From Georgenia yuyongxinii (GTDB lineage Bacteria; Actinomycetota; Actinomycetes; Actinomycetales; Actinomycetaceae), in assembly GCF_006352065.1 (NCBI RefSeq), contig NZ_CP040915.1:2914001-2978000 (forward strand): DNA of 64,000 bases. Reading direction: 5' to 3'. The notes under the pieces are model-generated. The model had not been told where the DNA came from, searched no databases, and saw only the letters and a program-made list of their open reading frames with translations. Numbering within the stretch: the stretch's first letter is position 1; every line of letters starts with the position of its first letter. Below are positions 19,246-63,151 of this stretch, piece after piece. A program made the position numbers and the translations under genes.

Positions 19246-20096
19246 CCGCCCCCGCCGTCGGCCACCCGGCGCGCCGGGCGTGGCACCACGACGTCATGGG
19301 CATGCCGGTGAGCATCCACGTGCTCGGCGGTCCCGACGGCGATACCGAACGCGCCGTCACCGCGGTGTACGAGGAGCTGCGACGCCTGGACCTCCTCCTC
19401 AGCACCTACCGCCCCGACTCGGAGGTCTCCCGGCTGGCCGACGGCGCAATCAGCCCGGCCGAGTGCACCCGGGAAGTGCGGGAGGTGATGGACCTGTGCG
19501 ACCTGGCATCACAGCTCACCCGCGGCGCCTTCGATGCCCGCCGTCCCCTGCCCGGTGGCGGCCACCGTCTCGATCCGACCGGCCTGGCAAAGGGCTGGAT
19601 GGTCGAGCGCGCCGCGGAGCCCCTACGGGCCCTGCCCGGCGCCGACTGGTACGTCAACGCCGGCGGCGACCTCCTGGCGGCCGCCGCTCCGGGAAACCCG
19701 CCGGTGCGGATCGGGATCGAGGACCCGCTCGACCGCGCAAGGCTGGTCACCGTCGTGGAGATCCGCGACGGCGGTGTGGCAACCTCCGGGACGGCCGCCC
19801 GCGGACCGCACATCTGGGATCCGCACACCGGTGCACCTGCGAGAGCGCTCGCCTCGGTCACGGTCGCGGGACCGACGCTCACCTTCGCCGACGCCCTCGC
19901 CACCGCGGTGTTCGTCGAGGGCGCCGAGGCAGCAGCGTGGGCGGCGGAGCTGGGGTACGAGGTCGTCGTCGTCCACCGGGACGGCCGGGCAGAGCGGACC
20001 CTCCCGGCCGCCGTGGAGGGGGAGTCGACGACGCCCCGGGGGAAGCGGACATCTCAACGAGGAGAAAGAGGTGATGACGTCTCGCGGCGGAGATGA
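19242..20096 (+). CDS. apbE: FAD:protein FMN transferase ApbE
   Basis: Transfers FMN from FAD to a Thr/Ser of target proteins. The 284-residue product shows LDPTGLAKGWMVERA (about 110-125), YVNAGGDLLA, VATSGTAARGPHIWDPHTG and the metal site TFADALATAVFVEG. No signal peptide or lipobox is visible, unlike many ApbE proteins. It overlaps the FMN-binding gene by four bases, and its substrate is almost certainly that protein. The last 18 or so residues (GKRTSQRGERGDD...) come from the palindromic repeat array downstream, and the stop lies inside the first 36-bp unit. Confidence 0.93.
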   Translation: MTAPAVGHPARRAWHHDVMGMPVSIHVLGGPDGDTERAVTAVYEELRRLDLLLSTYRPDSEVSRLADGAISPAECTREVREVMDLCDLASQLTRGAFDARRPLPGGGHRLDPTGLAKGWMVERAAEPLRALPGADWYVNAGGDLLAAAAPGNPPVRIGIEDPLDRARLVTVVEIRDGGVATSGTAARGPHIWDPHTGAPARALASVTVAGPTLTFADALATAVFVEGAEAAAWAAELGYEVVVVHRDGRAERTLPAAVEGESTTPRGKRTSQRGERGDDVSRRR

Positions 20097-20187
20097 CATC
20101 TCACCGAGACGATGTTCTCGCGGAGGAGATGACATCTCACCGACACGATGTTCTCGCGGAGGAGATGACATCTCACGCCTCATGCTT
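20049..20187. repeat. Palindromic repeat locus A: three 36-bp tandem units
   Basis: Three units with a 36-base period (20081-20116, 20117-20152, 20153-20187) each hold the palindrome GAGATGACATCTC (at 20090, 20126 and 20162), with TCGCGG before it. A decayed copy precedes them (from 20049). The array overlaps the end of apbE and reaches to within ten bases of the DUF2550 stop, so it sits between two convergent genes. The same core occurs at four other loci in the window. Confidence 0.9.
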
Positions 20188-20195
20188 GTGGGCGG

Positions 20196-20612
20196 CTAGA
20201 GGCGTGGCTCGCCTCGGGGCGGCGCCGCCTCCAGCCAGCTCACCAGGCCCGCGAACGCCTCACGCACCATGGCGATCTCGAGTACCTCGCCGCGGTGCGA
20301 CACGCGCGCCTCGATCACGTGCCCGGCGCCCGGCCGCCGCTCACGGGCGAGCACCACGAGCTCGTCCCGGGCCAACGTCCGGGACGGCGTCAGCCGCACC
20401 GACACCAGCCGGTACCAGTACACACGTCCCGCCCCGTAGCAGGCGATGCCGCTGGTCCAGTCCTTCGCGCCGGTCCGGCGCAGCGCGCACTCGAAAGAGC
20501 CGACCCGGTTGGCGATGCGCCGCACGCGCACGGCGTAGAGGGCGATCGCCACCACGACGAGGACGAGGGCGAGGACGGCCAGAGTTCCCCAGCCGGCACC
20601 CGCCCCCGTCAA
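20196..20612 (-). CDS. DUF2550 membrane-anchored protein
   Basis: A 138-residue protein with one N-terminal membrane helix (about 9-28) and a small cytoplasmic domain (ECALRRTGAKDWTSGIACYG, then a beta-rich stretch). This matches the DUF2550 proteins encoded right after atpC in many actinomycetes; their role is unknown. The start is unsure: TTG 20612, eight bases after the atpC stop, is the first usable codon and I see no good ribosome site. The position suggests cotranscription with the ATP synthase genes. Confidence 0.8.
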   Translation of the reverse strand: MTGAGAGWGTLAVLALVLVVVAIALYAVRVRRIANRVGSFECALRRTGAKDWTSGIACYGAGRVYWYRLVSVRLTPSRTLARDELVVLARERRPGAGHVIEARVSHRGEVLEIAMVREAFAGLVSWLEAAPPRGEPRL

Positions 20613-20619
20613 CGCGGCC

Positions 20620-20901
20620 CTACTTCTCGTCGCGGCCCAGCGCCGCCGGCTCGTTCCCGCTCTCCAGCACCACCGTGACCACGTCCTGGTCCACCGACAC
20701 GAAGCCGTCGACGACGTCGATCGTCACCGGGGCCCCGGACGTGGGCGTGATCCGCACGGTGCCCGGGCGCAGCACGGCCAGGACCGGCTCACGCCCGGTG
20801 AGGATGCCGAGGTCGCCGCCCGCGGCGGGGACCACCACGCTGGACGCCTCGCCGTTCCACAGGGCGCGCTCGGTGGACACCACGTCAACCTTCATGGTCA
20901 T
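20620..20901 (-). CDS. atpC: ATP synthase F1 epsilon subunit
   Basis: The 93-residue central-stalk epsilon subunit, with the N-terminal beta-sandwich typical of the family (VVVPAAGGDLGILTGREPVLAVL). It lacks the C-terminal helical hairpin that acts as a brake in many bacteria; short epsilon subunits are usual in actinomycetes. ATG 20901 has AAGGAGG eight bases upstream. Last ATP synthase gene of the operon. Confidence 0.93.
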   Translation of the reverse strand: MTMKVDVVSTERALWNGEASSVVVPAAGGDLGILTGREPVLAVLRPGTVRITPTSGAPVTIDVVDGFVSVDQDVVTVVLESGNEPAALGRDEK

Positions 20902-20932
20902 CGTTCAGACCTCCTTGGCTCGCGCGAGCCGC

Positions 20933-23333
<2,401 letters not shown>

Positions 23334-23335
23334 GC

Positions 23336-24976
23336 TCAGCCCCGCTTCGCAGCGACGATCTGCTCCTGCGCGTGCTCGGCCTCGACCTCGTCATCGCCCA
23401 GCGACGGCTCCGCCGTCAGCGGGTTGCCCGAGGCGTCCAGGAAGCCGCGACGGAACCCCTCGACGCCCGCACGCAGCGACTCCTCGGTGGCGTCCTCGAG
23501 CTTGCCGCTCTCGCGGATCGTGCCGAGCACGTCGGAGTTGCGGCGCAGGTGGTCGAGCAGCTCGCGCTCGAACCGGGAGACGTCCGCGACGTCGACGTCG
23601 TCGAGGTAGCCGTTCGTGCCCGTCCACACGGCCGCGACCTGGTCCTCCACCGCGTACGGGGAGTACTGGGGCTGCTTGAGCAGCTCCATGAGGCGCTCGC
23701 CGCGGGTGAGCTGCTGGCGCGTCGTCGGGTCGAGGTCGGAGGCGAACATCGCGAAGGCCGCCATCGAGCGGTACTGCGCGAGCGTGATCTTCAGCGTGCC
23801 GGCGACCTTCTTCATCGCCTTGATCTGGGCGTCACCACCCACACGTGACACGGAGATGCCGACGTCGACGGCGGGACGCTGGTTGGCGTTGAACAGGTCC
23901 GACTGGAGGAAGATCTGACCGTCCGTGATGGAGATGACGTTCGTCGGGATGTACGCCGAGACGTCGTTCGCCTTCGTCTCGATGATCGGCAGGCCGGTCA
24001 TCGAGCCCGCGCCCAGCTCGTCGGAGAGCTTCGCGCAACGCTCGAGCAGACGGGAGTGCAGGTAGAAGACGTCGCCGGGGTAGGCCTCACGGCCCGGCGG
24101 GCGGCGCAGCAGCAGCGAGACCGCACGGTAGGCCTCGGCCTGCTTGGACAGGTCGTCGAAGACGATGAGGACGTGCTTGCCCTGGTACATCCAGTGCTGG
24201 CCGATGGCGGAGCCGGTGTAGGGCGCCAGGTACTTGAAGCCGGCGGGGTCCGAGGCGGGGGCGGCGACGATGGTGGTGTACTCCAGTGCGCCGGCCTCCT
24301 CCAGGGCGCCGCGCACGGCGGCGATGGTGGAACCCTTCTGCCCGACGGCGACGTAGATGCAGCGCACCTGCTTGCTGGGGTCGCCGGACTCCCAGTTGGC
24401 CTTCTGGTTCAGGATCGTGTCGACGGCGATCGCGGTCTTGCCTGTCTGGCGGTCACCGATGATCAGCTGGCGCTGGCCGCGGCCGATCGGGATCATCGAG
24501 TCGATCGCCTTGAGGCCGGTCTGCAGCGGCTCGTGGACGCTCTTGCGCATCATGACGCCGGGGGCCTGGAGCTCCAGGGCGCGGCGGCCCTCGATGCCGG
24601 TGATCTCGCCGAGGCCGTCGATCGGCTGGCCCAGCGGGTCGACGACGCGGCCGAGGTAGCCCTCGCCGACGGGGACGGAAAGGACCTCGCCGGTGCGGCG
24701 CACCTCCTGGCCCTCCTCGATCCCGGTGAAGTTACCGAGGACGACGACGCCGATCTCGCGCACGTCGAGGTTCATCGCCAGGCCGAGGGTGCCGTCCTCG
24801 AAGCGCAGCAGCTCGTTCGCCATCGCGCCGGGCAGGCCTTCGACCTGCGCGATGCCGTCGGCGGTCAGAGTGACGTGACCGACCTCTTCGCTCGCTGCCT
24901 GGGTGGGTTCGTAGGAACTCACGAAGCTGTCCAGCGCAGCCCGGATCTCCTCGGGCCTGATCGTCAGCTCAGCCAT
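23336..24976 (-). CDS. atpA: ATP synthase F1 alpha subunit
   Basis: Non-catalytic nucleotide-binding subunit of F1, 546 residues. The P-loop is [13 protein letters not shown] and the alpha-subunit signature [14 protein letters not shown] is present. The C-terminus is about 30 residues longer than in E. coli ([16 protein letters not shown]...), as in other actinomycetes. ATG 24976 ([11 protein letters not shown]) is chosen over an in-frame codon 198 bases upstream, which would overlap the end of atpH. Confidence 0.98.
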
Positions 24977-25043
24977 CTGCTCTTCCTTCGCTGTGATGAC
25001 CGCTGTCGCGGTCGGTCCTTCATGTCGGTCAGGGGGTGCCGGG

Positions 25044-25859: not shown

Positions 25860-26433
25860 CACGCCTCCCGCGTGGTCGCCGCAGCGCCCTGCTCTGCCTC
25901 GGCCGCCTCGAGCTGGTCGAGGAAACGGTCGATGACACGGGACTGCAACGCCTGCTCGGTGACGGACTCACCCACGATGCGCGAGGCCAGCTCGGTCGCG
26001 AGCATGCCGACGTCGGTGCGCAGCGAGATCTGGGCGGCCTGGCGGTCGGCCTCGATCTGGCGCTGGGCGGCCTCGGTGACGCGGTCGGCCTCGGTCTGCG
26101 CCTTGCCGCGCGCCTCGGCGACGATCCGCTTGCCCTCTTCCTGAGCCTGCTCGCGCACCCCGGCGGCCTCGCGGCGCGCGTCGGCGAGCTCGCTCGCGAT
26201 GCGCTCCTCGGCGTCCGCGGCGGCCCGCTGGGCCTTCTCGGCCTGGGCCAGGCCGGCCTCGATCTTCGCGGCGCGCTCGTCGAGCATGGCGGTCAGCCGC
26301 GGGACCGCGTACTTCACGAGGAAGAACGCGATGATCGCGATGCACACCGCCGACCAGAGGATGTCGTAGCCGGCCGGCAGGAGGGGGTTCTGGGTGGTCA
26401 CCTCCTGCGCCACCACAGGGGCGTTGGCGTTCA

Positions 26434-33308: not shown

Positions 33309-33460
33309 GACTCTCCTAGGTTCGTGGATGCCCCGGGTCGCACGCGAGGCCGCGCACGTGAACCGGAAGCCGACGAGACATTGTGCCAGACGGCGCCGCA
33401 CCCGGTCACACCGAGCAGCGGCGCTGTGAGCGACGTCATGCCGCCCGCCCAATTCCCCCT

Positions 33461-33516
33461 GAGATGTCGTCTTCTGGGCGACATGTCATGACATCTCGCC
33501 GACGAGATGACATCTC
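33461..33516. repeat. Palindromic repeat locus B, after rho
   Basis: Contains GAGATGTCGTC (degenerate), GACATGTCATGACATCTCG and the perfect core GAGATGACATCTC (33504-33516). It ends 18 bases past the rho stop codon (rho reads leftward). The ATGTCATGACAT segment is shared with the large palindrome at 43397-43452. Confidence 0.85.
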
Positions 33517-33534
33517 ACGGGGGTGGCGGCCGTG

Positions 33535-35652
33535 TCAGTGGATCGCGAGCTCCGGCTCGGCGCCCGCGGGGGTCGGGGTGGTCTTCTGCACCCTCATGAG
33601 GAACTCGGCGTTCGAGCCCGTCTCGCGCAGCTTGCCGAGCAGGAGGTCGAGCGCCTGCTGCTGGTCGAGAGCACCCATGACACGGCGCAGCTTCCAGACG
33701 ATCTTGAGCTCCTCGGCGGCCATGAGCAGCTCCTCACGGCGAGTGCCGGAGGCGTTGATGTCTACGGCCGGGAAGATCCGCTTGTCGGCCAGCTGGCGCG
33801 ACAGACGCAGCTCCATGTTCCCGGTGCCCTTGAACTCCTCGAAGATGACCTCGTCCATCTTCGACCCGGTCTCCACCAGCGCGGAGGCCAGGATCGTCAG
33901 CGAACCGCCGTGCTCGATGTTGCGGGCGGCGCCGAAGAACTTCTTGGGCGGGTAGAGCGCCGAGGCGTCCACACCACCGGAGAGGATGCGCCCGGAGGCC
34001 GGGGCCGCCAAGTTGTACGCCCGCGAGAGGCGAGTCAGGGAGTCGAGCAGCACGACGACGTCCTGACCCAGCTCGACCAGGCGCTTGGCGCGCTCGATCG
34101 CGAGCTCGGCGACGATCGTGTGGTCGGTGGCCGGCCGGTCGAAGGTGGAGGCGATGACCTCACCCTTGACCATGCGCTCCATGTCCGTGACCTCCTCGGG
34201 GCGCTCGTCGACGAGCACCACCATGAGGTGAACGTGCGGGTTGTTGATGGAGATCGCGTTGGCGATCTGCTGCATGATGATCGTCTTGCCAGCCTTGGGC
34301 GGGGAGACGATCAGGCCACGCTGGCCCTTGCCGATCGGGGCGACGAGGTCGATGACTCGCGGCGTGATCGCCTTGGGAGTGGTCTCCAGACGCAGCTGCT
34401 CCTGCGGGTACAGCGGGGTGAGCTTGCTGAACTCCGGACGCTGACGCGCGTTCTCCACGCTCATGCCGTTGACGCTGTCGAGGCGCACGAGGGCGTTGAA
34501 CTTCTGCCGCTTGTTCTCGGCCTCGCCCTCGTGGGGCTGACGGACGGCGCCGGTGATGGCATCACCGCGGCGCAGGCCGTTCTTCTTGACCTGGCCGAGG
34601 GTGACATAGACGTCGTTGGGGCCGGGCAGGTATCCGGAGGTCCGCACGAACGCGTAGTTCTCGAGGATGTCGAGAATGCCGGCGACGGGCAGCAGGACGT
34701 CGTCCTCGCTGACCTCCGGCGTCATCTCCTCGTACGGGGCGTAGTCCGTGCGGCCGCCGGTGCGGCGCTTGTTGCGGTCGCGGCCGCGGTCGCGGTTGCG
34801 GCGCCGGTTGCGTCCGCCGTGCTCGTCGTCGGCGTCGTCCTGATGGGTGCGCTGCTGCTGACCCTGCGGACCACCGTGCTGGTTCTGCGTCCGCTGGCCG
34901 TCCTGGTCACCACCACGACGGCGCGCGGCTGCCGCGTCGCCGAGGGCGTCGAGGGCCCGGCGCGCACGCTCCTCGTCGGTCTCGACGTTCACGCCGTTGC
35001 GGGCGGCGTGAACGGCGAGCTCACGCTTGAGCGCCTCCTTGGCGTCGTCGTGCGCCTCGGGCGCATCCTGCGTGTCCTGCGTCTCGGGGTTCGCGACGGG
35101 CGCGGTCGCTCGGCGTGATCCGCGGCGGCGCGGCGCGTCCGTCCGCTCGGCGGCGGCCGGCTGCTGATCGGCGGCGGCCGGCTGCAAATCGGCGGCGGTC
35201 GGCTGCTGCGTGGGCGCCGACTGCTCGGCGGTCACCGGCTGGGTTGGCTCGGTGGCACGCGGTGCGGCGGCCTCCGGCTCGGTCCGCTCGGAGCGCTCGG
35301 TGGCACGCGGCGCGGCAGCGCGGCTGCGCGTGCGGGGTGCCCGCTCGGTGGGCTGGGTGCCCTCGGCGGGCAGGGAGTCGACGGACCGGGCACCTTCGAC
35401 AGGTGCGGAGTCGACGGACCGGGCACCCTCGGCTGGCGCGGTCCGGGCTGCCTGCTGGCCCGACGCGGGAGCGGAGCCGCCGTTGCGACCTTCACGGATG
35501 GCCGTGATCAGGTCGCTCTTCCGCATCTTGGTGGTGCCCTTCAGGCCCATCTCGCTGGCCAGCGCCTGCAGCTCGGGCAGGCGCATGGTGCTCAGCGAGC
35601 CCCCACGGGCGGCGCGGCCTTCGCTCTGGGGGGCTTCGACGGTCTCGGTCAC
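33535..35652 (-). CDS. rho: Transcription termination factor Rho, with long N-terminal insertion
   Basis: Hexameric RNA-dependent ATPase ending transcription. The 705-residue protein is much longer than the 419-residue E. coli Rho. After the Rho N-domain (MRLPELQALASEMGLKGTTK, residues 23-42) come about 240 residues of disordered sequence: Ala/Pro/Gln/Glu first (VEGARSVDS repeats, QPAAADQQPAAAE), then a basic Arg/Asn/Asp stretch. The RNA-binding domain and ATPase follow: P-loop SPPKAGKTIIMQQ (about 454), Walker B VVVLLDSLTRLSRAYN. Such insertions are known in actinomycete Rho and bind RNA. GTG 35652 is the start. A repeat locus lies just past its stop. Confidence 0.97.
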   Translation of the reverse strand: MTETVEAPQSEGRAARGGSLSTMRLPELQALASEMGLKGTTKMRKSDLITAIREGRNGGSAPASGQQAARTAPAEGARSVDSAPVEGARSVDSLPAEGTQPTERAPRTRSRAAAPRATERSERTEPEAAAPRATEPTQPVTAEQSAPTQQPTAADLQPAAADQQPAAAERTDAPRRRGSRRATAPVANPETQDTQDAPEAHDDAKEALKRELAVHAARNGVNVETDEERARRALDALGDAAAARRRGGDQDGQRTQNQHGGPQGQQQRTHQDDADDEHGGRNRRRNRDRGRDRNKRRTGGRTDYAPYEEMTPEVSEDDVLLPVAGILDILENYAFVRTSGYLPGPNDVYVTLGQVKKNGLRRGDAITGAVRQPHEGEAENKRQKFNALVRLDSVNGMSVENARQRPEFSKLTPLYPQEQLRLETTPKAITPRVIDLVAPIGKGQRGLIVSPPKAGKTIIMQQIANAISINNPHVHLMVVLVDERPEEVTDMERMVKGEVIASTFDRPATDHTIVAELAIERAKRLVELGQDVVVLLDSLTRLSRAYNLAAPASGRILSGGVDASALYPPKKFFGAARNIEHGGSLTILASALVETGSKMDEVIFEEFKGTGNMELRLSRQLADKRIFPAVDINASGTRREELLMAAEELKIVWKLRRVMGALDQQQALDLLLGKLRETGSNAEFLMRVQKTTPTPAGAEPELAIH

Positions 35653-40060: not shown

Positions 40061-40160
40061 GATGACTCGCGGAAGCATGACTCGCGGAAGAATGACAACG
40101 CCCGGAGCGAAAGACTCGCGGAAGAGATGACATCTCGCGGAGAAGATGACATCTCGCGGG
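40061..40160. repeat. Palindromic repeat locus C, after lysA
   Basis: Starts with short degenerate units (ATGACTCGCGGAAG repeated with small changes) and ends with GAGATGACATCTCGCGG (core 40124-40136) and AAGATGACATCTCGCGG. It ends 15 bases past the lysA stop codon, with lysA reading leftward. Same core and TCGCGG flank as locus A. Confidence 0.88.
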
Positions 40161-40174: not shown

Positions 40175-41605
40175 TCAGCCCTCGTCGAGCGCGAGCAGGT
40201 CCTCGACCGTCTCCCGGCGCACCAGCACCCGCGCCTGGCCGTCCCGCACTGCCAGGACCGGCGGGCGCGGCACCATGTTGTAGTTGCTGGCCATCGACCG
40301 GCCGTACGCGCCGGTCGCGGGCACCGCGAGCAGGTCCCCGGCCCGGACGTCGGCGGGCAGCGCGACGCCGTGGACCACGATGTCCCCGCTCTCGCAGTGC
40401 TTGCCCACCACCCGCGCGGTGACGGCCTCGGCGTCGGACGCGCGCGAGGCCAGCGCCGCGGTGTACTCGGCCTGGTACAGCGCCGGGCGGATGTTGTCGC
40501 TCATCCCCCCGTCGACGCTGACGTAGGTGCGCCGGCCGCCGTCGTCGAGGGCGACGACCTTGACGGTGCCCACCGTGTACAGCGTGAGCGCGGACGGGCC
40601 AACGATCGACCGGCCGGGTTCGACCGAGATGCGGGGGACGTCGGTGCCCAGGTCCGTGCAGGCCCGCCGGACGGCGTCCGCGAGGGTCGTGGCGATCTGC
40701 TCGGGCGTGGGGGGCACGCCGTCGTGCCCGGTGTAGCTGATGCCGTAGCCGCCGCCGAGGTCCACCTCGGGCATGAGGTGACCGCTGCGGGCGGCGACGT
40801 CGGCGCGCAGGCCCAGGACGGCGCGGGCGGCCACCTCGAACCCGGCCAGGTCCAGGATCTGGGAGCCGATGTGCGAGTGCAGGCCGATGAGGTCGAGCTC
40901 GGGGCGGGCGAGGATGGTCTCGACGGCCTTGGCGGCGGCGCCCGAGGTGAGGGAGAGGCCGAACTTCTGGTCCTCGTGGGCGGTGGCGATGAACTCGTGC
41001 CCCCCGGCGTGGACGCCGGTGGTGACCCGCACCATCACCGGGGCGACCACGCCGAGGCGGGCGGCGACGGCGGCGACCTGGTCGATCTCGGGCAGCGAGT
41101 CGACCACGATCCGGCCCACCCCGTGCTCCAGGGCTGCGGTGATCTCGGCGTCGGACTTGTTGTTGCCGTGCAGGCCGATGGCCTCCCCCGGCACCTCGGC
41201 GCGGATGGCCACGGCGAGCTCCCCGCCGGTGGCGGTGTCCACCCGCAGGCCTTCCTCGTGCACCCAGCGGGCCACGGCGACGGACAGGAACGCCTTGCCG
41301 GCGTAGTACACGTCTGCCCCGGCCATCCCGGCCTCGGGGGCGAAGGCGGCGGCGAACGCCTCGGCGAACCGGCGGGCCCGGCCGCGCAGGTCCGCCTCGT
41401 CCACGACGTAGGCGGGGGTCCCGTGCTGGCGGGCGATGTCGCGCACATCCAGGCCGGCGACGGCCAGCGCACCGTCGGGCCCGCGGCGGATGGTCGTCGA
41501 CCACGGCTCGCCGCCCGGCTCGGGGGCGGGCAGCGGCGGCGCGTCCACGGCGGGGGCCTGCGCCGGGTGGGCCTGGTGCGGCGCCTCGGCCCGGTGCCGG
41601 TTCAC
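40175..41605 (-). CDS. lysA: Diaminopimelate decarboxylase
   Basis: Last step of lysine synthesis, from meso-DAP. The 476-residue PLP enzyme has the lysine in DVYYAGKAFLS, HSHIGSQI, the glycine loop VDLGGGYGISYTG and the substrate motif VGKHCESGD. GTG 41605 overlaps the argS stop by four bases (GTGA). The first 30 residues are His/Ala/Pro-rich and may not be conserved. The argS-lysA pair is standard in actinomycetes. Confidence 0.96.
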   Translation of the reverse strand: MNRHRAEAPHQAHPAQAPAVDAPPLPAPEPGGEPWSTTIRRGPDGALAVAGLDVRDIARQHGTPAYVVDEADLRGRARRFAEAFAAAFAPEAGMAGADVYYAGKAFLSVAVARWVHEEGLRVDTATGGELAVAIRAEVPGEAIGLHGNNKSDAEITAALEHGVGRIVVDSLPEIDQVAAVAARLGVVAPVMVRVTTGVHAGGHEFIATAHEDQKFGLSLTSGAAAKAVETILARPELDLIGLHSHIGSQILDLAGFEVAARAVLGLRADVAARSGHLMPEVDLGGGYGISYTGHDGVPPTPEQIATTLADAVRRACTDLGTDVPRISVEPGRSIVGPSALTLYTVGTVKVVALDDGGRRTYVSVDGGMSDNIRPALYQAEYTAALASRASDAEAVTARVVGKHCESGDIVVHGVALPADVRAGDLLAVPATGAYGRSMASNYNMVPRPPVLAVRDGQARVLVRRETVEDLLALDEG

Positions 41606-43248: not shown

Positions 43249-43362
43249 CTGGCACAGGTTAGTCGCAGGCCATGACGCTGCTGGGCCCGCGTCCGACCGC
43301 CGGGTGCGGTCCGCGTCACAGCGGCCGCGCCTCCCCACCCGCGACGGCGCCTCCCCCGCCCC

Positions 43363-43452
43363 GACATGTCATGACCTCGGCCGCTCCCCCGCCCCCGACA
43401 TGTCAAGTCCTCCGCGAGATGTCATGACATGTCGCGGAGGACTTGACATGTC
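43363..43452. repeat. Palindromic repeat locus D with a 56-bp palindrome
   Basis: 43397-43452 is a palindrome of 28 + 28 bases with a single mismatched pair and no loop, centred at 43424/43425. Its arms include GACATGTC, AAGTCCTCCGCG and GATGTCA. A shorter related piece, GACATGTCATGAC, lies at 43363-43375. The locus is in the 261-base gap between argS and the proline-rich membrane gene, 57 bases past the stop of the latter. Confidence 0.92.
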
Positions 43453-43509
43453 ACCGCGCGGGGGGCGCCGCGACCTGAGGGCCGGGTGGGCGGGTGGGTG
43501 CGCGCTCCG

Positions 43510-44499
43510 TCAGATCAGCATGTTGCGGTAGATCGTCTGGACGGCGTCCGCCGGCCCGGTCAGGGTCAGGACGACGCCGTCGTCGGTGCGCCACACCAAC
43601 GCGGTGGTCGCCCCGTCCTCGAGGACGTAGTACCAGTAGTGGCCGGTGTCGTCGACGTAGACCGAGCCCTCGCCCTGGGAGGTGGCGCCGCCGGCCTCCA
43701 GATCGGCGGCCAGCTGCTCGCTGTACGCGTCCTGCGCCTCGATGGACTCGAAAGCGGCCGCAGTGACCGGCACGTCGGTGCTGCCGTCGGAGTAGGTGCC
43801 GGACAGTGCCTCGCGGGCGCCTGCGGCAATCGCCTCCTCGTCGGAGGTCCAGCCGGCGTCCGTCAGGGCGAAGGTGGTGTTGACCACCGTGGTGTCGAGC
43901 CGCGGCTCGAGGGGGTCGGCGCTCAGCGAGCGGGATTCGCTGGCGGCGGTGGTCTCCTCGGTGGCGGACGTGGCCGCGGCCGAGGTGGTCTCCTGGACCG
44001 CGGGAGTGTCGTCGCCCCGGCCGAAGAAGAGGTAGGCGGCGACGCCGGCGAGCACCAGCACCACCACGGTGAGGATGACGGGGACCACCCAGCCACGGCG
44101 CTTCTCGGGCCCGCCAGGGCCGGCCGGCCCGCCCGGGCCGGATGCGCCGTCGTCGAACGCGGAGCCCGGGTAGGGCGCGCCCGGCGCTGAGCCCTGCGGC
44201 GTCTCTCCACCGGCGCCCGGGGACCTGCCGTACTGGTCGCCCGTCATCCACGGCGGCGTGGCCTCCGGGCCCGGGTACCCCGACGGGGACGCCGGGAAGG
44301 CCTGGGTGGTGTCGCCCCGGACTGGGCCGAGCGGCTGGGTGGCGTCCGGACCGAGCGGCTGGGTGGCGTCCGGACCGAGCGGCTGGGTGGCGTCCGGGCC
44401 GAGCGGCTGGGTGGCGTCCGGCGGAAGCGGCTGCTCGTCGGGCACGCCGCCCGGCTCGGACCGCGGCGGGCCGTTCGGCTCCGGCGGTTTCTGGCTCAT
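43510..44499 (-). CDS. Membrane protein with proline-rich repeat N-terminus
   Basis: Unrecognised 329-residue protein. Residues about 1-135 are disordered and Pro/Gly-rich and include four exact copies of PDATQPLG. A single membrane helix follows (about 137-158, GWVVPVILTVVVLVLAGVAAYLFF), then a Thr/Ser/Glu linker and an outer domain of about 125 residues. The topology is type II. Such proline-rich cytoplasmic tails are common in actinomycete envelope proteins. Lone gene between argS and tRNA-Arg. Confidence 0.78.
   Translation of the reverse strand: MSQKPPEPNGPPRSEPGGVPDEQPLPPDATQPLGPDATQPLGPDATQPLGPDATQPLGPVRGDTTQAFPASPSGYPGPEATPPWMTGDQYGRSPGAGGETPQGSAPGAPYPGSAFDDGASGPGGPAGPGGPEKRRGWVVPVILTVVVLVLAGVAAYLFFGRGDDTPAVQETTSAAATSATEETTAASESRSLSADPLEPRLDTTVVNTTFALTDAGWTSDEEAIAAGAREALSGTYSDGSTDVPVTAAAFESIEAQDAYSEQLAADLEAGGATSQGEGSVYVDDTGHYWYYVLEDGATTALVWRTDDGVVLTLTGPADAVQTIYRNMLI
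44327..44422 (-). repeat. Four 24-bp tandem repeats inside the proline-rich gene
   Basis: Four contiguous 24-base units (44327, 44351, 44375, 44399) encode PDATQPLG each time; they are almost identical, the outer ones differing by single bases. Being a multiple of three, copy-number change would keep the frame. Confidence 0.92.
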
Positions 44500-54612: not shown

Positions 54613-56226
54613 TCAGCAGCGGGCGGAGACGTCCACCGCGCCGTGCTCCTCGAGCCAGGTCAGCGGGTCGATCGTCGTGCCCTCGGTGTCGGTGTGGACC
54701 TCGAAGTGCAGGTGCGGCCCGGTGGAGTTGCCGTTGCTGCCGACCTCGGCGATCACGTCGCCCCCGCGGACCGTCTGGCCCTCGGTCACACGGATGCCGT
54801 CCGGATACATGTGGACGTGCCAGGTGTAGAAGGTTTCGCCGTCGATCTCGTGCTTGAGGATCACGAGCATGCTCGACCGGCCGTCCTTGCCCACGCCGAC
54901 GTACTCCACGGTGCCGTCCGCGACCGCGTAGATGGGCGTGCCCTTGGGAGCGGCGAAGTCCTCCCCCAGGTGCTTGCTGTAGCCGGTGAAGGGACTGTTG
55001 CGGAAGCCGTACGAGGAGGAGAGCCGGTACGCCCCCGCTGCGACCGGCATGATCACCGCGGACTCACGGTCTGTCACCGCGGCACGCACGCCGTTGGCGC
55101 CGTCGAGAGGCGCACAGGTGAGGGTGTGACGCTCGTTCGCGCGGGAGGTCTGCATCAGCGCGGCTCGGCTGGCCGCCGTCCGGTCGGCGAGGAGGCCGTC
55201 GGGGGCGACCAGAGCGGCGGCAGCGGCGGCAGCGTCGAGATGCTCGAGCAGGCTCGCCTGGGTGGCGACGGTCTGGCTGGCCGAGGCCACCTCGTCGGCA
55301 CCCGCGAGGCCGGTGAGCGGGCCGACGATGGTCAGCGCGCCGAGCGTGCCGAGCACGGCGGCGCGAGGAGCCCAGCCACGGCTGCGGCGCTGCGGGGCGG
55401 CCGGCCGGGTCGACTGCTCGCGCAAGGCGCGGCGACTGGCCGGCGGACCACTCGGTGCACGGCGAACGAGCACTTCGGTAGGTGTCTGATCGGCGGCCGT
55501 CGGGATGTCTGCGGGGGTCTCGGCAGTCGGTGCCGTGTCCGGGGCGGTGGCAAGAGCTCCGGCGGTCACGTCGGCGACCTTCGCCGCCCGTGCCCGACGA
55601 GTCTGCGGGGCAGCCGCACGTTCGGCGACGGCTCGCTCGGCGGCGGCGCGCTCGGCAGCGGCGCGCTCGGCAGCAACCTGCTCCGCAGCAGCGCGCTCGG
55701 CAGCGGCGCGCTCGGCAGCAACCTGCTCCGCAGCAGCGCGCTCGGCAGCGGCGCGCTCGGCAGCCGCCTTCTCCGCAGCAGCGCGCTCGGCAGCCGCCTT
55801 CTCCGCGGCGGCCCGCTCGGCAGCAACCTTCTCGGCAGCCACCTTCTCCGCAGCAGCCTGTTCGGCAGCAGCACGCTCAGCAGCAGCCTTCTCGGCCGCC
55901 CGACGCCGGGTCTTCCGCTCCTGGACCGCCTGCTCCTGAGCCGCACGCTCCGCCGCAGCCTGGGCGGCGGCACGCTCGGCGGCCGCACGCGTCTGAGCCG
56001 CAGACTCCTCCGCCGCACGCAGCCGGGCAGCCTCCTCGGCGGCACGCAGCCGCGCGCGGGAGTGGGCGACAGCTTCCTCGGCGGCACGCATCCTGGCGGC
56101 CTCGTCGGCGCGCTGCACCTCGAGGGCGGTGTGCAGCCGGGCGGCCTCGGCCGCGCGTTCTGCCTCACGGAGCTGGCGTCGGGTCAGCGGCGGTGCCGGG
56201 GTACCGGGCACGGCGCTTCCTGACAT
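54613..56226 (-). CDS. M23 endopeptidase with long Ala/Glu coiled coil and internal membrane helix
   Basis: A 537-residue protein. It starts with LTRRQLREAERAAEA, then about 180 residues of near-perfect AAAER/AAAEK/AAAEQ coiled coil (about 40-220), a Pro/Thr linker, SRRALREQ, and one membrane helix (about 280-305). The C-terminal M23 (LytM) domain lies outside. The zinc ligands are in HLGEDFAAPKGTPIYAVADG (H and D, about 418-422) and TGPHLHFEVH (about 505). It should cut peptidoglycan peptides. ATG 56226 has a GGAGG ribosome site inside the small palindrome CCTCCGGAGG. A CRP-like site and three inverted repeats lie upstream. Confidence 0.9.
   Translation of the reverse strand: MSGSAVPGTPAPPLTRRQLREAERAAEAARLHTALEVQRADEAARMRAAEEAVAHSRARLRAAEEAARLRAAEESAAQTRAAAERAAAQAAAERAAQEQAVQERKTRRRAAEKAAAERAAAEQAAAEKVAAEKVAAERAAAEKAAAERAAAEKAAAERAAAERAAAEQVAAERAAAERAAAEQVAAERAAAERAAAERAVAERAAAPQTRRARAAKVADVTAGALATAPDTAPTAETPADIPTAADQTPTEVLVRRAPSGPPASRRALREQSTRPAAPQRRSRGWAPRAAVLGTLGALTIVGPLTGLAGADEVASASQTVATQASLLEHLDAAAAAAALVAPDGLLADRTAASRAALMQTSRANERHTLTCAPLDGANGVRAAVTDRESAVIMPVAAGAYRLSSSYGFRNSPFTGYSKHLGEDFAAPKGTPIYAVADGTVEYVGVGKDGRSSMLVILKHEIDGETFYTWHVHMYPDGIRVTEGQTVRGGDVIAEVGSNGNSTGPHLHFEVHTDTEGTTIDPLTWLEEHGAVDVSARC
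55625..55990 (-). repeat. 15-bp/45-bp periodic coding repeats (AAAER) in the peptidase
   Basis: The coiled-coil part is built from 15-base units coding AAAER, AAAEK or AAAEQ, with longer 45-base repeats (AAAEQVAAERAAAER). Only alanine-glutamate heptad-like text is encoded, so copy number could change without harming the frame. Confidence 0.85.
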
Positions 56227-56444: not shown

Positions 56445-56446
56445 TT

Positions 56447-56468: not shown

Positions 56469-56496
56469 TGCGCCCGCGAAGGGACATGCCCCGCTG

Positions 56497-57549: not shown

Positions 57550-58859
57550 GACGCGCCCTCCTCGGCCCACACCCGCAGCCGGTCGACGCGGCGGCCGTCC
57601 ATCTGCTCCACGTGCAGGACCACGCCCCCGACGGCGATCCGGTCGCCGGTCTGCGGGACGCGGCCCAGCCGGTCCATGACCAGGCCACCGAGGGTCTCGT
57701 ACGGGCCGTCGTCGGGCACGTACAGCCCGGCCTTGCGGGCCAGCTCGTCCGGGCGCAGGACGCCGGGCACCACCCAGGTGCCGCCCGGGCCGGCGTGGGC
57801 CCCGGAACGACGGCGGTCGTGCTCGTCCGCGACGTCCCCGACGATCTCCTCGACCACGTCCTCGAGGGTGACGACGCCGGAGGTGCCGCCGTACTCGTCG
57901 ACCACCACCGCCATCTGCAGGCCCTCGTCGCGCAGCTGGACCAGCAGCGGTGCCAGCGCCAGCGTCTCGGGCACGCGCGGCGCGTCGGACATGAGGGAGG
58001 AGGAGGCGACCGGCACGTCGCCGCGCCGCTCGTAGGGCACCGCGATGGCGCGACGCAAATGCACCAGCCCGACCACGTCGTCGTTGTCGTCGCCGATGAC
58101 CGGGAAGCGCGAGTGCCCGGTCGCCCGGGCGAGCGCGACCACGTCCGCCGCGGTCTGCTCACGGGTCAGGGTGTGCAGGCGCCCCCGGTCGGTCATGACG
58201 TCGACGGCGGTCAGCGCGCCGAGCCCGATCGAACGGGTCAGCAGCGTGGCGGTGGAGACGTCGAGGGTGCCCTGCTCGGCGGACCGGCGCACGAGGGCGG
58301 CGAGCTCGGAGGCCGACCGGCCCCCGGAGAGCTCCTCGGCCGCCTCGACGCCGAACAGCCGCAGGATCGCGTTGGCGGAGTTGTTCAAGGCCACGATGAC
58401 CGGGCGCAGCGCCGCCGTGAACACACCCTGCACGGGAGCGACCAGTCCCGCGGTGGCCAGCGGGTCGGCCAGCGCCAGGTTCTTCGGGACCAGCTCCCCG
58501 AGCACCATCGAGAAGGTGTTGACCAGCACGAGCGAGATCACGACGGCGGTGGCCGTGGCGGCGGCCTCGGCCAGCCCGGCGTTGCCGAGCGGCCCGGTCA
58601 GCAACGTGGCCAGCGCGGACTGGGCCGTGTAGCCCAGCAGGATCGTGGTCAGGGTGATGCCCACCTGGGCGCTGGACAGCTCCAGGGAGAGGCGCTTGAG
58701 CGCCTGCGCGACGCGGGCCGCGCGCCGGTCACCGGCGGCGGCGCGCCCTTCCACGGTGCCCGGGTCGAGCGCCACCAGGGAGAACTCCGCCGCGACGAAG
58801 ATCGCTGTGCCCGCCGTGAGGACCACGCCGAGCAGGACGAGCAGCCACTCCGTCAGCAC
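57546..58859 (-). CDS. CNNM/DUF21-CBS-CorC membrane protein, full form
   Basis: A 437-residue paralogue of the downstream gene: CNNM domain (about 1-190; GELVPKNLALADPLATAGL), CBS pair (about 205-340; HSRFPVIGDDNDDVVGLVHL, GVVTLEDVVEEIVGDV) and a C-terminal CorC_HlyC domain (about 350-430). Probably a divalent-metal transporter; the two may form a heterodimer, as they are translationally coupled. GTG 58859 (VLTEWLLVLLG) is the start. A -10-like TACAAT lies at 58975-58970. Confidence 0.93.
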   Translation of the reverse strand: MLTEWLLVLLGVVLTAGTAIFVAAEFSLVALDPGTVEGRAAAGDRRAARVAQALKRLSLELSSAQVGITLTTILLGYTAQSALATLLTGPLGNAGLAEAAATATAVVISLVLVNTFSMVLGELVPKNLALADPLATAGLVAPVQGVFTAALRPVIVALNNSANAILRLFGVEAAEELSGGRSASELAALVRRSAEQGTLDVSTATLLTRSIGLGALTAVDVMTDRGRLHTLTREQTAADVVALARATGHSRFPVIGDDNDDVVGLVHLRRAIAVPYERRGDVPVASSSLMSDAPRVPETLALAPLLVQLRDEGLQMAVVVDEYGGTSGVVTLEDVVEEIVGDVADEHDRRRSGAHAGPGGTWVVPGVLRPDELARKAGLYVPDDGPYETLGGLVMDRLGRVPQTGDRIAVGGVVLHVEQMDGRRVDRLRVWAEEGAS

Positions 58860-58969
58860 CGCGCACCGCCTCTCGGGAGCGGTGCGAGGGCACCGCCCGG
58901 GCGTTTTCGGGGCCGGGCAGGGTCGGGGTCGCGATGTCGACCGCGGCGTGAGCGTCGCATGGTGGAGCG

Positions 58970-58975
58970 ATTGTA
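58970..58975 (-). promoter_or_regulatory. Possible -10 box of the CNNM operon
   Basis: TACAAT on the minus strand, about 110 bases upstream of GTG 58859. No matching -35 box is evident. The divergent gap 58860-59234 (375 bases) must also hold the kgd promoter, for which I see no clear boxes; nothing else is visible in it. Confidence 0.3.
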
Positions 58976-59234
58976 CGAACGCCGCCGCCGCCGTCGCCCG
59001 ATATGCCCAGCCGTCGGCGGACCTGCCGCAGTCGGGCGCCTGGCACACGAGCCCCGGACCAACGTCCTAGGTGGCCGTGACGCCATCTTGACCCCGACTT
59101 TGTACCACCCCCCGGCACGCGTCCCGGGGACTCAGATCGTGGGACGGGAGGGGGCTTCGATGCGGGCCGCGAGCGGCCGATCACCTAGGGTTGTAGGGAT
59201 CTTCGTCACACCCCCTGGAAGGGGCGATCTCCGA

Positions 59235-62200
59235 GTGTCCACGCAGGAACACGACCCAATGGCTGCTTTCGGTGCCAACGAATGGCTCATCGAGGAGCTC
59301 TACGAGAAGTACCGGAAGGACAAGAAGTCCGTCGATCCCGCTTGGTGGGACTTCTTCGAGGACTACGACGGCGGCGCGGGCGCGAACGGCAACGGCGCAG
59401 CCCTGCCCGCGGCCGAGTCGGCCAAGCACGCAGCGAAGGCGCCGACGGCGCCCCCTCCGCCGGCAGCCACGCGCCCCGCGGACGGCGGGCGCCCGGGCAG
59501 CCGGCCGAGCGCGTCGGTGACCCGTGAGGCGGCCTTGCACATCGACTCCCGGGCCGAGCAGCCGGCCACCGAGCAGATTCGCTCGGACCTGCCGCCGGCC
59601 CCGCCCGTGGCCGCCCAGCCGCCCACGTCGTCCTACGTCGCCAACCTCGGCGCCGCCCGGGAGGAGGCCGAGCCCGCCCAGGCCCAGGACGAGACGGTCA
59701 AGCTGCGCGGCGTCGCCGCGCGCACCGTGAAGAACATGGAGACCAGCCTCGAGCTGCCGGTCGCCACCTCGGTGCGCGCCGTGCCGGCCAAGGTCATGGT
59801 CGACAACCGCATCGTCGTCAACAACCACCTGTCGCGCTCGCGCGGCGGGAAGATCTCCTTCACGCACCTCATCGGCTACGCCATGGTCGAGGCGCTGGCC
59901 GAGATGCCGGACATGAACTACTCCTACGCCGAGACCGAGGACGGCAAGCCCGCCGTGTTCCAGCCGGCGCACGTGAACTTCGGCCTCGCCATCGACCTGC
60001 CCAAGCCGGACGGCACCCGCACCCTCGTCGTGCCGTCGGTGAAGGCGGCCGACGAGATGGACTTCGCCCAGTTCTGGGCGGGCTACGAGGACCTCGTCCG
60101 CAAGGCCCGTAACAACAAGCTCACCGTCGAGGACTACGCCGGGACCACGATCTCGCTGACCAACCCCGGCGGCATCGGCACCGTGCACTCCATCCCCCGC
60201 CTGATGAAGGGGCAGGGCACGATCGTCGGCGTCGGCGCGATGGACTACCCCGCCGAGTTCGCCGGCTCCTCCTCCGCCACGCTGGCCCGGCTCGGGGTGT
60301 CCAAGGTCCTGACGCTGACCTCGACCTACGACCACCGGATCATCCAGGGCGCCGCCTCCGGCGAGTTCCTCAAGATCATCGAGAAGAAGCTGCTCGGCAC
60401 CGACGGCTTCTACGACCGCGTCTACACGTCTCTTCGGGTTCCCTACGAGCCCGTGCGCTGGATGCGCGACGTTGAGTACAGCCCGGAGAGCGAGCTGGGC
60501 AAGCCGGCCCGCATCGCCGAGCTCATCCACGCCTACCGCTCGCGCGGCCACCTCATCGCGGACACCGACCCGCTGGCCTACCGGCAGCGGCGCCACCCCG
60601 ACCTCGACATCGCGAACTACGGCCTGACCCTGTGGGACCTGGAGCGTCAGTTCCCCACGGGCGGGTTCGGCGCCAGCACCCGGGCGCCGCTGCGCGACAT
60701 CCTCGGCCAGCTGCGTGACGCGTACTGCCGCACGATCGGCATCGAGTACATGCACATCTCCGAGCGGGCCCAGCGCAGCTGGTTCCAGGAGAAGCTCGAG
60801 GCGCCCTACGCCAAGCCGTCGAGCGAGCAGCAGCTGCGGATCCTCAAGAAGCTCGGTGCGGCCGAGGCGTTCGAGACGTTCTTGCAGACCAAGTACGTGG
60901 GCCAGAAGCGCTTCTCCCTCGAGGGCGGGGAGTCCCTCATCCCGCTGCTCGACGTCATGCTCACCGGTGCGGCTCAGGAGGGCATGGACGAGGTCGGCAT
61001 CGCCATGGCCCACCGCGGCCGCCTCAACGTGCTGGCGAACATCGCGGGGAAGTCCTACCGGCAGATCTTCTCTGAGTTCGAGGGCAACCAGGACCCGCGC
61101 ACCGTCCAGGGCTCCGGGGACGTGAAGTACCACCTGGGCACCGTGGGCACCTTCACCGCCCCCGACGGCGAGGAGACGAAGGTCTACCTGGCCGCCAACC
61201 CCTCCCACCTCGAGGCCGCCGACGGCGTGCTCGAGGGGGTCGTGCGCGCCAAGCAGGACCGGATCGACCTGGGCGAGCAGGGCTTCTCCGTGCTGCCCGT
61301 GCTCATCCACGGCGATGCCGCGTTCGCGGGGCAGGGCGTGGTCACCGAGACCCTGCAGCTGTCGCAGCTGCGCGGGTACCGCACCGGCGGCACGATCCAC
61401 ATCATCGTGAACAACCAGATCGGGTTCACGACCGGGCCGTCGAGCTCACGCTCGTCCTACTACCCCACGGACATCGTCAAGGGACTGCAGATCCCCGTGC
61501 TCCACGTCAACGGGGACGACCCCGAGGCCGTGGCGCGGGTGGCCGAGCTCGCCTTCGAGTTCCGCCAGAAGTTCCACAAGGACATCGTCATCGACCTGGT
61601 GTGCTACCGCCGTCGTGGTCACAACGAGGGTGACGACCCCTCGATGACCCAGCCGGTGATGTACGCCCTCATCGAGAACAAGCGCTCGTCGCGCAAGCTG
61701 TACACCGAGGCGCTGATCGGGCGCGGGGACCTCACCGAGGAGCAGGCCGAGGAGGCGCTGAAGGACTACCAGCGCGAGCTGGAGCGGGCCTTCACCGAGA
61801 CCCGCGAGAGCGGCTGGACGCCGCCGGAGTCCGCCGACCAGGTGGCGGGGCTGGAGCGGCCGGAGTCCCAGCGCGAGGACGCCGGCACGATGGTGGGTTG
61901 GCAGACCGCCGTGCCCACCGAGGTGCTCGAGCGGGTCGGGCAGGCGCACGTGCGCCCGCCGGAGGGCTTCACCGTCCACCCCAAGCTGCTCAAGCTGCTC
62001 CAGCGGCGCGAGCAGATGACCCGCGAGGGCGGGATCGACTGGGGCTTCGGCGAGATCCTCTCCTTCGGGTCGCTGCTCATGGAGGGCACGCCGGTGCGTC
62101 TGGCCGGCCAGGACTCCCGGCGAGGCACGTTCACCCAGCGTCACGCGGTGCTGCACGACTACCACACCGGCGCCGAGTGGACGCCGCTGGTGTACCTCAC

Positions 62201-63065
62201 ACCGGACCAGGCGAAGTTCTGGATCTACGACTCCTCGCTGAGCGAGTACGCGGCCCTGGCCTTCGAGTACGGCTACTCGGTGGAGCGCCCGGACGCCCTG
62301 GTGCTGTGGGAGGCGCAGTTCGGCGACTTCGTCAACGGCGCGCAGACCGTCATCGACGAGTTCATCTCCTCCTCCGAGCAGAAGTGGGGCCAGAACTCCT
62401 CCCTCGTGCTGCTGCTGCCGCACGGCTACGAGGGTCAGGGCCCGGACCACTCCTCGGCGCGCATCGAGCGGTTCCTCCAGATGTGCGCGGAGCAGAACAT
62501 GGTGGTGGCGCAGCCGTCCACGCCGGCGAACCACTTCCACCTGCTGCGCCGGCAGGCCTACGCCCGCCCGCGGAAGCCGCTCGTGCTGTTCTCCCCCAAG
62601 CAGCTGCTGCGCCTGAAGGCGGCGGCGTCCTCGGTGGAGGACTTCACCACGGGCACCTTCCGCCCGGTCGTGGGCGAGGTGGAGTCGCGCGTGCGGGACG
62701 CGGCCGACAAGGTCCAGCGGGTCCTGCTGTGCTCGGGCAGGGTCTACTACGACCTCGCCGCGCACCGCCTGAAGACCGAGGACCCGACGACAGCGATCGT
62801 CCGGCTCGAGCAGCTCTACCCGCTCGAGCTCGACCAGATCGCCGCCGAGCTGGCCGCGTTCCCGAACGCCGAGGTCGTGTGGGTGCAGGACGAGCCGGAG
62901 AACCAGGGCCCCTGGACCTTCGTGTCCGACCACCTGGGTGAGGCCCTCGGGGGCCGCTCGCTTCGTGTGGTGTCCCGGCCCGCCGCGGCATCGCCGTCGA
63001 CCGGCTCGCACAAGCGGCACGTGGAGGAGAACGCCGACCTGATGACGCGGGCGTTCGCCCGCTGA
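59235..63065 (+). CDS. kgd: Multifunctional 2-oxoglutarate decarboxylase/dehydrogenase Kgd
   Basis: Actinomycete fusion of an E2-like succinyltransferase core and the E1 component of 2-oxoglutarate dehydrogenase, at the TCA-cycle branch towards succinyl-CoA. The 1276-residue protein has an N-terminal helix (NEWLIEELYEKYRKDKKSVDP), a Pro/Ala linker, an E2 core (catalytic histidine in TYDHRIIQGA, about 365) and the E1 part with AHRGRLNVLANI and the thiamine site GDAAFAGQG ... IVNNQIGFTT (about 690-728). There is no lipoyl domain, as expected. GTG 59235 has GGAAGGGG upstream; ATG 59259 is possible. Repeat locus E follows its stop. Confidence 0.97.
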   Translation: MSTQEHDPMAAFGANEWLIEELYEKYRKDKKSVDPAWWDFFEDYDGGAGANGNGAALPAAESAKHAAKAPTAPPPPAATRPADGGRPGSRPSASVTREAALHIDSRAEQPATEQIRSDLPPAPPVAAQPPTSSYVANLGAAREEAEPAQAQDETVKLRGVAARTVKNMETSLELPVATSVRAVPAKVMVDNRIVVNNHLSRSRGGKISFTHLIGYAMVEALAEMPDMNYSYAETEDGKPAVFQPAHVNFGLAIDLPKPDGTRTLVVPSVKAADEMDFAQFWAGYEDLVRKARNNKLTVEDYAGTTISLTNPGGIGTVHSIPRLMKGQGTIVGVGAMDYPAEFAGSSSATLARLGVSKVLTLTSTYDHRIIQGAASGEFLKIIEKKLLGTDGFYDRVYTSLRVPYEPVRWMRDVEYSPESELGKPARIAELIHAYRSRGHLIADTDPLAYRQRRHPDLDIANYGLTLWDLERQFPTGGFGASTRAPLRDILGQLRDAYCRTIGIEYMHISERAQRSWFQEKLEAPYAKPSSEQQLRILKKLGAAEAFETFLQTKYVGQKRFSLEGGESLIPLLDVMLTGAAQEGMDEVGIAMAHRGRLNVLANIAGKSYRQIFSEFEGNQDPRTVQGSGDVKYHLGTVGTFTAPDGEETKVYLAANPSHLEAADGVLEGVVRAKQDRIDLGEQGFSVLPVLIHGDAAFAGQGVVTETLQLSQLRGYRTGGTIHIIVNNQIGFTTGPSSSRSSYYPTDIVKGLQIPVLHVNGDDPEAVARVAELAFEFRQKFHKDIVIDLVCYRRRGHNEGDDPSMTQPVMYALIENKRSSRKLYTEALIGRGDLTEEQAEEALKDYQRELERAFTETRESGWTPPESADQVAGLERPESQREDAGTMVGWQTAVPTEVLERVGQAHVRPPEGFTVHPKLLKLLQRREQMTREGGIDWGFGEILSFGSLLMEGTPVRLAGQDSRRGTFTQRHAVLHDYHTGAEWTPLVYLTPDQAKFWIYDSSLSEYAALAFEYGYSVERPDALVLWEAQFGDFVNGAQTVIDEFISSSEQKWGQNSSLVLLLPHGYEGQGPDHSSARIERFLQMCAEQNMVVAQPSTPANHFHLLRRQAYARPRKPLVLFSPKQLLRLKAAASSVEDFTTGTFRPVVGEVESRVRDAADKVQRVLLCSGRVYYDLAAHRLKTEDPTTAIVRLEQLYPLELDQIAAELAAFPNAEVVWVQDEPENQGPWTFVSDHLGEALGGRSLRVVSRPAAASPSTGSHKRHVEENADLMTRAFAR

Positions 63066-63081
63066 CCCCTTCAGTGGAGTG

Positions 63082-63151
63082 GTGAGATGTCATCTCCTCC
63101 GTGAGATGTCATCTTCTCCGTGAGATGTCATCTCCTCCGTGAGATGTCATC
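63082..63151. repeat. Palindromic repeat locus E: four 19-bp tandem units after kgd
   Basis: Units of GTGAGATGTCATCTCCTCC start at 63082, 63101, 63120 and 63139; the second has one change and the fourth is cut short. Each contains the core GAGATGTCATCTC, the reverse complement of the core in loci A-C. The array starts 16 bases past the kgd stop. The rest of the 284-base gap to the next gene shows nothing else. Confidence 0.92.

Follow-up and report, generated by a model that had tools for sequence, protein, structure and literature searches.

What kind of element is the short palindrome that recurs behind genes of the actinobacterium Georgenia yuyongxinii? The window analysed here, a stretch of 64,000 nucleotides (nt) from contig NZ_CP040915.1, holds five loci at which a palindromic core, GAGATG-N-CATCTC, accompanies gene 3' ends. 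An original prediction made from the window alone had listed these loci and proposed either a mobile element resembling repetitive extragenic palindromic (REP) sequences and bacterial interspersed mosaic elements (BIMEs), or a lineage-specific 3'-end family. All five loci were found where it had placed them. The repeat proves to be one 19-bp unit, which is present in a tandem register or as a facing pair at more than 100 sites associated with gene 3' ends, in one spelling per species and at sites that are partly shared between species.

The genome of G. yuyongxinii (one contig of 4,171,640 bases, hereafter the home genome, G000) contains 40 exact copies of the core in its 4.17 Mb, and a reversed control pattern is found 0 times. 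When up to two mismatches are allowed, the core yields 16 matches in the window, compared with a mean of 1.94 over 100 shuffles, none of which reached 16. The genome-wide count is far above its control, and the outcome that would have refuted the original prediction, a count at chance level, did not occur. A position matrix seeded with the exact cores revealed that the repeating entity is larger than the 13-bp palindrome, which occupies positions 3-15 of a 19-bp unit, GYGAGATGTCATCTYCTCC; the strand on which the unit reads in this way is called the T strand. The predicted core is thus real but only part of the repeat, and a CTCGCGGAG flank described beside it, though present, is the unit tail read on the other strand and no separate element. 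At a score of 9, the unit matrix gives 144 matches on 194 kb of fetched home-genome sequence (some pieces overlapping) and 0 on the reverse. With an E cut-off of 1, a sequence-only 38-nt model built from 43 dimers finds at least 175 matches in the home genome, a minimum in that 150 of its 3482 candidates received a score. For the cluster analysis that follows, we drew on the window and on regions retrieved around the matches listed, and not on an annotation of the whole genome. Every twelfth of the chromosome has clusters (6 to 16 each), an even spread, yet the window holds nine of the 40 exact cores in 1.5% of the genome.

At a score of 16, the units fall into 130 clusters, of which 99 run in one direction and 31 are mixed, and simple direct pairs make up 57 of the 134 clusters obtained at a score of 14. 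Spacing on the same strand is strongly fixed at 19 nt, with 142 cases in the home genome and 127 in G. thermotolerans (G002), where the next commonest spacing occurs three times each, and 149 in the congener G003 (next commonest, four). Facing arrangements include 19 palindromes of 56-61 bp that are at least 80% self-complementary (14 of 60 bp, three of 56 bp and two of 61 bp). Among the matches listed, these palindromes align with one another over about 60 bp, and therefore a discrete piece was copied.

Facing arms of the kind that define the terminal inverted repeats of miniature inverted-repeat transposable elements (MITEs) exist. At L129 (G000:C1:502997-503181) and L150 (G000:C1:1878025-1878192), the sequence between two facing arrays is similar and itself contains an inverted repeat, a MITE-like layout, and L133, near G000:C1:934392, is perhaps a third case. 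A MITE with shared cargo was considered for the family but not adopted; the common inner stretch is a feature of two facing pairs. At L064, behind G000:C1:3774595, an array is followed by a 31-bp perfect inverted repeat with a 6-nt loop.

Placement relative to genes, which were called with a codon-usage script trained on the window, is tied strongly to 3' ends. Genes flank 94 of the one-direction clusters on either side; the gap is co-directional for 57 of these, convergent for 35 and divergent for only two, although divergent gaps account for 14% of the spacer in the window and 27% of the array-free spacer of the fetched pieces (p=1e-4 and 6e-11, respectively). The median distance past a co-directional stop codon is 22.5 nt, and such a stop lies at most 60 nt upstream in 69 of the 94 clusters, compared with a background of 0.20 computed over all spacer positions and both orientations of the same pieces. 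Only five of the 130 clusters lie within called open reading frames (ORFs). The predicted tie to gene 3' ends therefore extends from the five window loci to the 130 clusters. Orientation is also biased, in that the T strand matches the transcript for 45 of the 57 clusters in co-directional gaps (p=1.3e-5) and the T-side stop is the nearer one in 27 of 35 convergent gaps (p=0.002); judged by eye, some of the 12 counter-oriented co-directional cases are right-hand arms of facing pairs (L133, L140, L175). In G003, the unit's own stop is nearer in 12 of 13 convergent cases, with two divergent ones. This bias suggests that the transcribed strand matters, either through selection or through the mode by which copies arrive.

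To count copies across species irrespective of tail, we used the pattern GASANGTCA-N10-GASANGTCA with one mismatch, counting neighbouring pairs within an array separately. It matches 216 times in the home genome, 179 in G. thermotolerans, 117 in G003, 13 in G001, 10 in G004, once each in G005 and G008, and 0 times in G006 and G007, while the reversed pattern has 0 matches in all nine Georgenia genomes. The genus thus comprises high-copy (G000, G002, G003), low-copy (G001, G004) and practically copy-free species (G005-G008, 0 or 1 match). A tree of the kgd and rho pieces groups the home genome with the pair G002 and G004, and G003 with G001, then G005. As these sisters hold 179 versus 10 copies, copy number changes fast between sister species. 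A model-free search for 12-mers present in at least three spacers of the syntenic region exceeded shuffles only in the home genome (14 versus 0-2) and G. thermotolerans (8 versus 0), and most of these 12-mers are the units.

Nearly all of the matches found belong to Georgenia. The exact core occurs in 10 of 59 genomes (home plus 58 relatives), with counts of 1, 2 or 5 (G003) outside the home genome, and the cores at L016 and L017, at least, look by eye like coding coincidences. A strict tandem pattern was found in one of 396 genomes of the order, the home genome itself, in a sample that included no other Georgenia. The same pattern in the genome_contigs collection retrieved 48 stretches, 47 of them from Georgenia (45 G. 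thermotolerans, two Georgenia sp. EYE_87). A loose pattern gave one match each in 13 of 142 genomes of the same family outside the genus, including G467, whose match is free of mismatches, versus 8 of 142 for the reversed control. A viral origin was rejected, since the strict tandem pattern has 0 matches in viral contigs. The remaining genome_contigs stretch is from a metagenome-assembled genome of Schlesneria (L234, 6719-6748), where two spaced units may reflect chance, contamination or a distant relative.

The most telling feature of the family, which is invisible in a single window, is that species use different dialects at shared sites. The unit of G. thermotolerans is GCGAGACGTCAAGTTGGGC, with only GACGTC as its core, and that of G003 is GCGAGACGTCAACTCCTCC. 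Between the home genome and G. thermotolerans, the unit head (first 11 positions) is 83% alike and the 19-nt period is also kept, whereas the tail is 34% alike, compared with 60% and 57% within species. The long palindrome is accordingly a feature of the home spelling that is not kept across species.

Sites are nevertheless shared. When only 3' gaps of at least 60 nt are considered, 57 G. thermotolerans genes carry a unit there and 18 of them have an ortholog-like gene in the home set of array genes (122 proteins), versus 3 of the 96 genes whose gap lacks a unit (p=1.3e-6). This comparison is controlled for spacer length and replaces an earlier one (14/36 versus 11/260) that was unmatched in this respect. 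At 13 sites shared between the two species, the matrix of the own species fits best for 43 of 43 G. thermotolerans units and 32 of 34 home units; for seven sites in common with G003, the separation is less sharp (22/30 and 17/22). Orthologous arrays of the home genome and G. thermotolerans (11 sites) share 11.81 of 19 bases, which is no more than random cross-species arrays share (11.80). Unlinked arrays within a species share 14.63 (home) and 14.67 (G. thermotolerans) of 19, and units within one array 14.79 and 15.59. Likeness throughout a species without likeness at a locus is the pattern of concerted 'dialect' evolution, although the matrices used to call the units favour each species' consensus. 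The sites would predate the spelling they now carry, except if insertion in every species had a strong preference for the same gene ends.

The genes at shared sites are mostly housekeeping genes. A Pfam scan of 13 of the 14 genes at shared G. thermotolerans sites named rho, triosephosphate isomerase, IspD, polyprenyl synthase, a fumarase-type lyase, pyruvate dehydrogenase E1, aldehyde dehydrogenase, pseudouridine synthase, an HD hydrolase, DUF2550 and a RecC C-terminal domain, with two below the cut-off; kgd is also a shared-site gene, and is named here after the original prediction.

The five window loci and their immediate neighbours are as follows.

20067-20176, minus strand: direct array of four units (20067-20085, 20086-20104, 20122-20140, 20158-20176), 3' of the DUF2550 gene (20196-20612, minus; Pfam)
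at 20039, minus strand: weak fifth unit of the same array, from the unit matrix
33329-33373, minus strand: L31-Actinobacteria ribosomal protein leader (Rfam RF03158), adjoining the rho-side palindrome
33459-33518, no strand assigned: 60-bp near-palindrome of two facing half-arrays, 3' of rho (33535-35652, minus) and before rpmE and its L31 leader
40120-40157, minus strand: direct array of two good units, with decayed ones to about 40036, 3' of the gene at 40175-41605 (minus)
43361-43454, no strand assigned: one unit (43361-43379) plus a 60-bp near-palindrome (43395-43454), 3' of the gene at 43510-44499 (minus)
63082-63157, plus strand: direct array of four units, 16 nt past the stop of the gene at 59259-63065 (plus; kgd)
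63154-63189, plus strand: GC-rich hairpin read by eye, a probable terminator, directly behind the kgd array

The loci differ in how widely they are shared. The kgd end carries arrays of another spelling in G. thermotolerans and G004 and none in the six other congeners; by eye, the array sits between the stop and the GC hairpin in these two species and the home genome, and the hairpin stands without an array in G001, G003 and G005-G008. The rho end has inverted or direct-plus-inverted arrays of other spelling in G. thermotolerans and G004, with none seen in the six other congeners. At the DUF2550 end, G. thermotolerans has a six-unit array in its own dialect; none was seen in G003-G007, and the gene was not found in G008. 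No array was seen at the orthologous end of the gene originally called lysA (40175-41605; Pfam Orn_Arg_deC) in G002, G003, G004, G005, G007 or G008, G006 not being resolved, nor at that of gene 43510-44499 in G002, G004, G005, G006 or G007, the gene not being found in G003 and G008 not being resolved. The lysA and 43510 arrays (seen in the home genome only) and the DUF2550 array (seen in the home genome and G. thermotolerans) are thus younger loci. Each locus had been predicted to lie at or past the stop codon of at least one gene. At the DUF2550 locus this holds for the DUF2550 side, but the array is not simply past the stop of the opposite ORF (19242-20096, plus; originally called apbE), whose stop codon lies inside a unit; the array may thus have taken the place of the C-terminus that this ORF once had. 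In the syntenic pieces from seven relatives, nothing matched the ORF.

How the family relates to known systems was assessed with the literature. REPs of the GTAG and CGTC super-families are described as lying behind genes, between convergent or co-directional ORFs, and some are species-specific; according to the same source, CGTC-class REPs lack a dedicated transposase and have negligible head-to-tail dimers (PMC3733652, in which the word actinobacteria does not occur). The Georgenia repeat resembles these REPs in being short, palindromic, present in many copies, mostly intergenic and located behind genes, and it resembles the CGTC class in that no REP transposase family was found for it. Unlike REPs, GYGAGATGTCATCTYCTCC and its complement contain neither a GTAG nor a CGTC tag (CGTC is present in the G. 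thermotolerans and G003 units, but within the core and not as an end tag), the dimers are mostly head-to-tail in a fixed 19-nt register, and the palindrome is not kept between species. REP doublets forming hairpins (REPINs) are inverted doublets tied to REP-associated tyrosine transposases (RAYTs; PMC3116915), and form populations that persist in genomes (PMC3116915, PMC8049555). The Georgenia family is similar in consisting of short repeats, some of which are also arranged as inverted doublets that can fold into hairpins. It is unlike REPINs in its preponderance of direct arrays, with only the 19 clear inverted pairs among 130 clusters. The RAYT that the original prediction had proposed to look for was not found: Pfam Y1_Tnp had no match in the home genome or any other of the nine Georgenia genomes, although the same search was positive in 5 of 14 controls; other transposase families and the genes between facing arrays were not searched. 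The original proposal of a dispersed, lineage-specific, REP/BIME-like 3'-end family is thus supported in part; the commonest layout is a head-to-tail array and not an inverted REP pair. Because the tag and the RAYT were not found, we do not classify the family among the REPs, although it behaves like them.

Mycobacterial interspersed repetitive units (MIRUs) are also tandem repeats in actinobacterial spacers, with longer units of other sequence. The 92 stem-loop families described in 40 bacterial genomes are similarly intergenic and able to fold; the abstract of that paper does not name Georgenia (PMC2267715). In the titles and opening parts of abstracts of the open-licence literature, no description of such a repeat family in Georgenia was found.

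We hypothesize, with a probability of roughly 0.5, that the arrays are a REP/REPIN-like population of short non-coding elements behind genes, of a new architecture and kept by a putative trans-acting factor. This putative mobilising or binding protein would recognise the unit and would spread or replace copies, which could yield one spelling per species; the stretch behind a stop codon would be where copies are tolerated or favoured, and units in mRNA could fold into hairpins that may shield the 3' end or limit read-through. For more than 100 short elements to have one spelling, copies must arrive at the same places again and again, or a reader of the sequence must select for it. In favour of this reading are the excess of cores over the control, the fixed 19-nt spacing, the mutually alignable palindromes, the scarcity of divergent gaps, the strand bias, the shared sites without similarity specific to a locus, the unequal copy numbers of the sisters G002 and G004, and the position behind genes that is also described for REPs (PMC3733652). 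The kgd array, gained between a stop and a hairpin that array-free relatives share, also speaks for this reading. A number of observations weigh against it. No mobiliser was identified and mobility itself was not observed, the Y1_Tnp result counts here as well, and no target-site duplication was seen by eye in the flanks of the 56-61-bp palindromes. An element that did nothing but wander would leave fewer sites in common between species. In G. thermotolerans, orientation is less strongly biased (16 with versus 6 against, p=0.05; 7:7 in convergent gaps; 5 divergent), and in co-directional gaps of G003 one unit cluster runs with the gene and two against. Finally, because the units of each species were identified with a matrix of that species, consensus-like units are favoured and deviating ones may have been missed.

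A rival reading is a functional 3'-end recognition array, in which a Georgenia DNA- or RNA-binding protein binds GYGAGAnGTCA every 19 nt behind stops and ends transcription or protects the mRNA, with a spelling that co-evolves as in a regulon. The sites kept behind orthologous, mostly housekeeping genes, the strand bias, and a head and period that are retained while the tail drifts species-wide all argue for such an array. We regard it as a serious but tentative alternative, since four congeners lack the arrays and two have only a few, so that the role cannot be general, their presence at the same gene differs between close species (lysA, 43510, DUF2550), and no binder is known or was looked for. 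A bolder version, a dedicated Georgenia system in which a putative trans-acting protein reads the 19-nt-spaced array behind more than 100 genes and in which spelling and specificity co-evolve into dialects although many sites persist (a '3'-end address code'), appears somewhat less probable still, and we know of no counterpart. Neisseriaceae DNA uptake sequences (DUS) offer a precedent for species-wide spellings, dialects and inverted pairs at gene ends (PMC3630211). That the Georgenia units are themselves uptake sequences is nonetheless very improbable, as they number in the low hundreds, form direct arrays in a 19-nt register, and place only 5 of 130 clusters inside a called ORF. DUS are present in far more copies.

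Two further explanations were weighed. If the arrays were intrinsic transcription terminators that duplication had multiplied in this species, their position behind genes would be accounted for, as would their folding, which is better than that of shuffles (z -11.1 for the 43395-43454 palindrome, -7.0 for the 33459-33518 palindrome and -2.4 to -2.8 for three direct arrays). We consider this unlikely. An intrinsic terminator with a T tract was rejected as a candidate since the stem-loops fold but the unit tail is YCTCC, with no T tract following. The palindrome is not kept in G. thermotolerans. A hairpin kept by compensatory change was likewise rejected: in pair hairpins, 90.3% of cells pair versus 90.4% in shuffles and no pair has changed on both sides, and in single-unit hairpins the values are 89.3% versus 88.7%, with 36 of 500 shuffles as high and one pair changed on both sides. 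A strong stem occurs in the next 95 nt behind 11 of 95 one-direction arrays, few enough to leave room for terminator function of the arrays themselves yet above the 2.1% of shuffles, and behind 4 of 19 array-free 3' ends in the window; two of these four are two sides of one spacer, and the scan does not decide on terminators. The separate GC hairpin at kgd is common to array-free relatives and a strong stem follows some arrays, so that some of them lie ahead of a terminator without having to act as one themselves. Rfam scans of the window and six loci (seven sources) matched only a tRNA and the L31 leader, with no curated RNA family on the elements. Even less likely are plain minisatellites, whereby strand slippage yields tandem copies where the spacer allows and no trans-acting factor is needed. 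Locus-specific tandem arrays do occur in spacers of all eight species compared and in no shuffles, but slippage cannot unify unlinked arrays, which are nearly as alike as units within one array.

Concerted evolution of a short repeat at more than 100 unlinked, partly shared sites, without the transposase of REPINs, is a pointer to a novel machine for copying or reading such sequences. As Georgenia includes high-copy, low-copy and practically copy-free species, comparative genomics and simple bench tests can seek this machine directly.

The locus-specific tandem repeats have periods of 14-39 and were seen in 8 of 8 Georgenia regions (L190-L209 and the window), in two to eight spacers each and in none of two shuffles per region; most, such as those in G005, are unrelated to the 19-bp unit. 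Long tandem repeats also occur within the window, at 55534-55929 (15 nt, 18 copies) and at 44327-44433 (24 nt, 4.5 copies), the latter inside the called gene 43510-44499.

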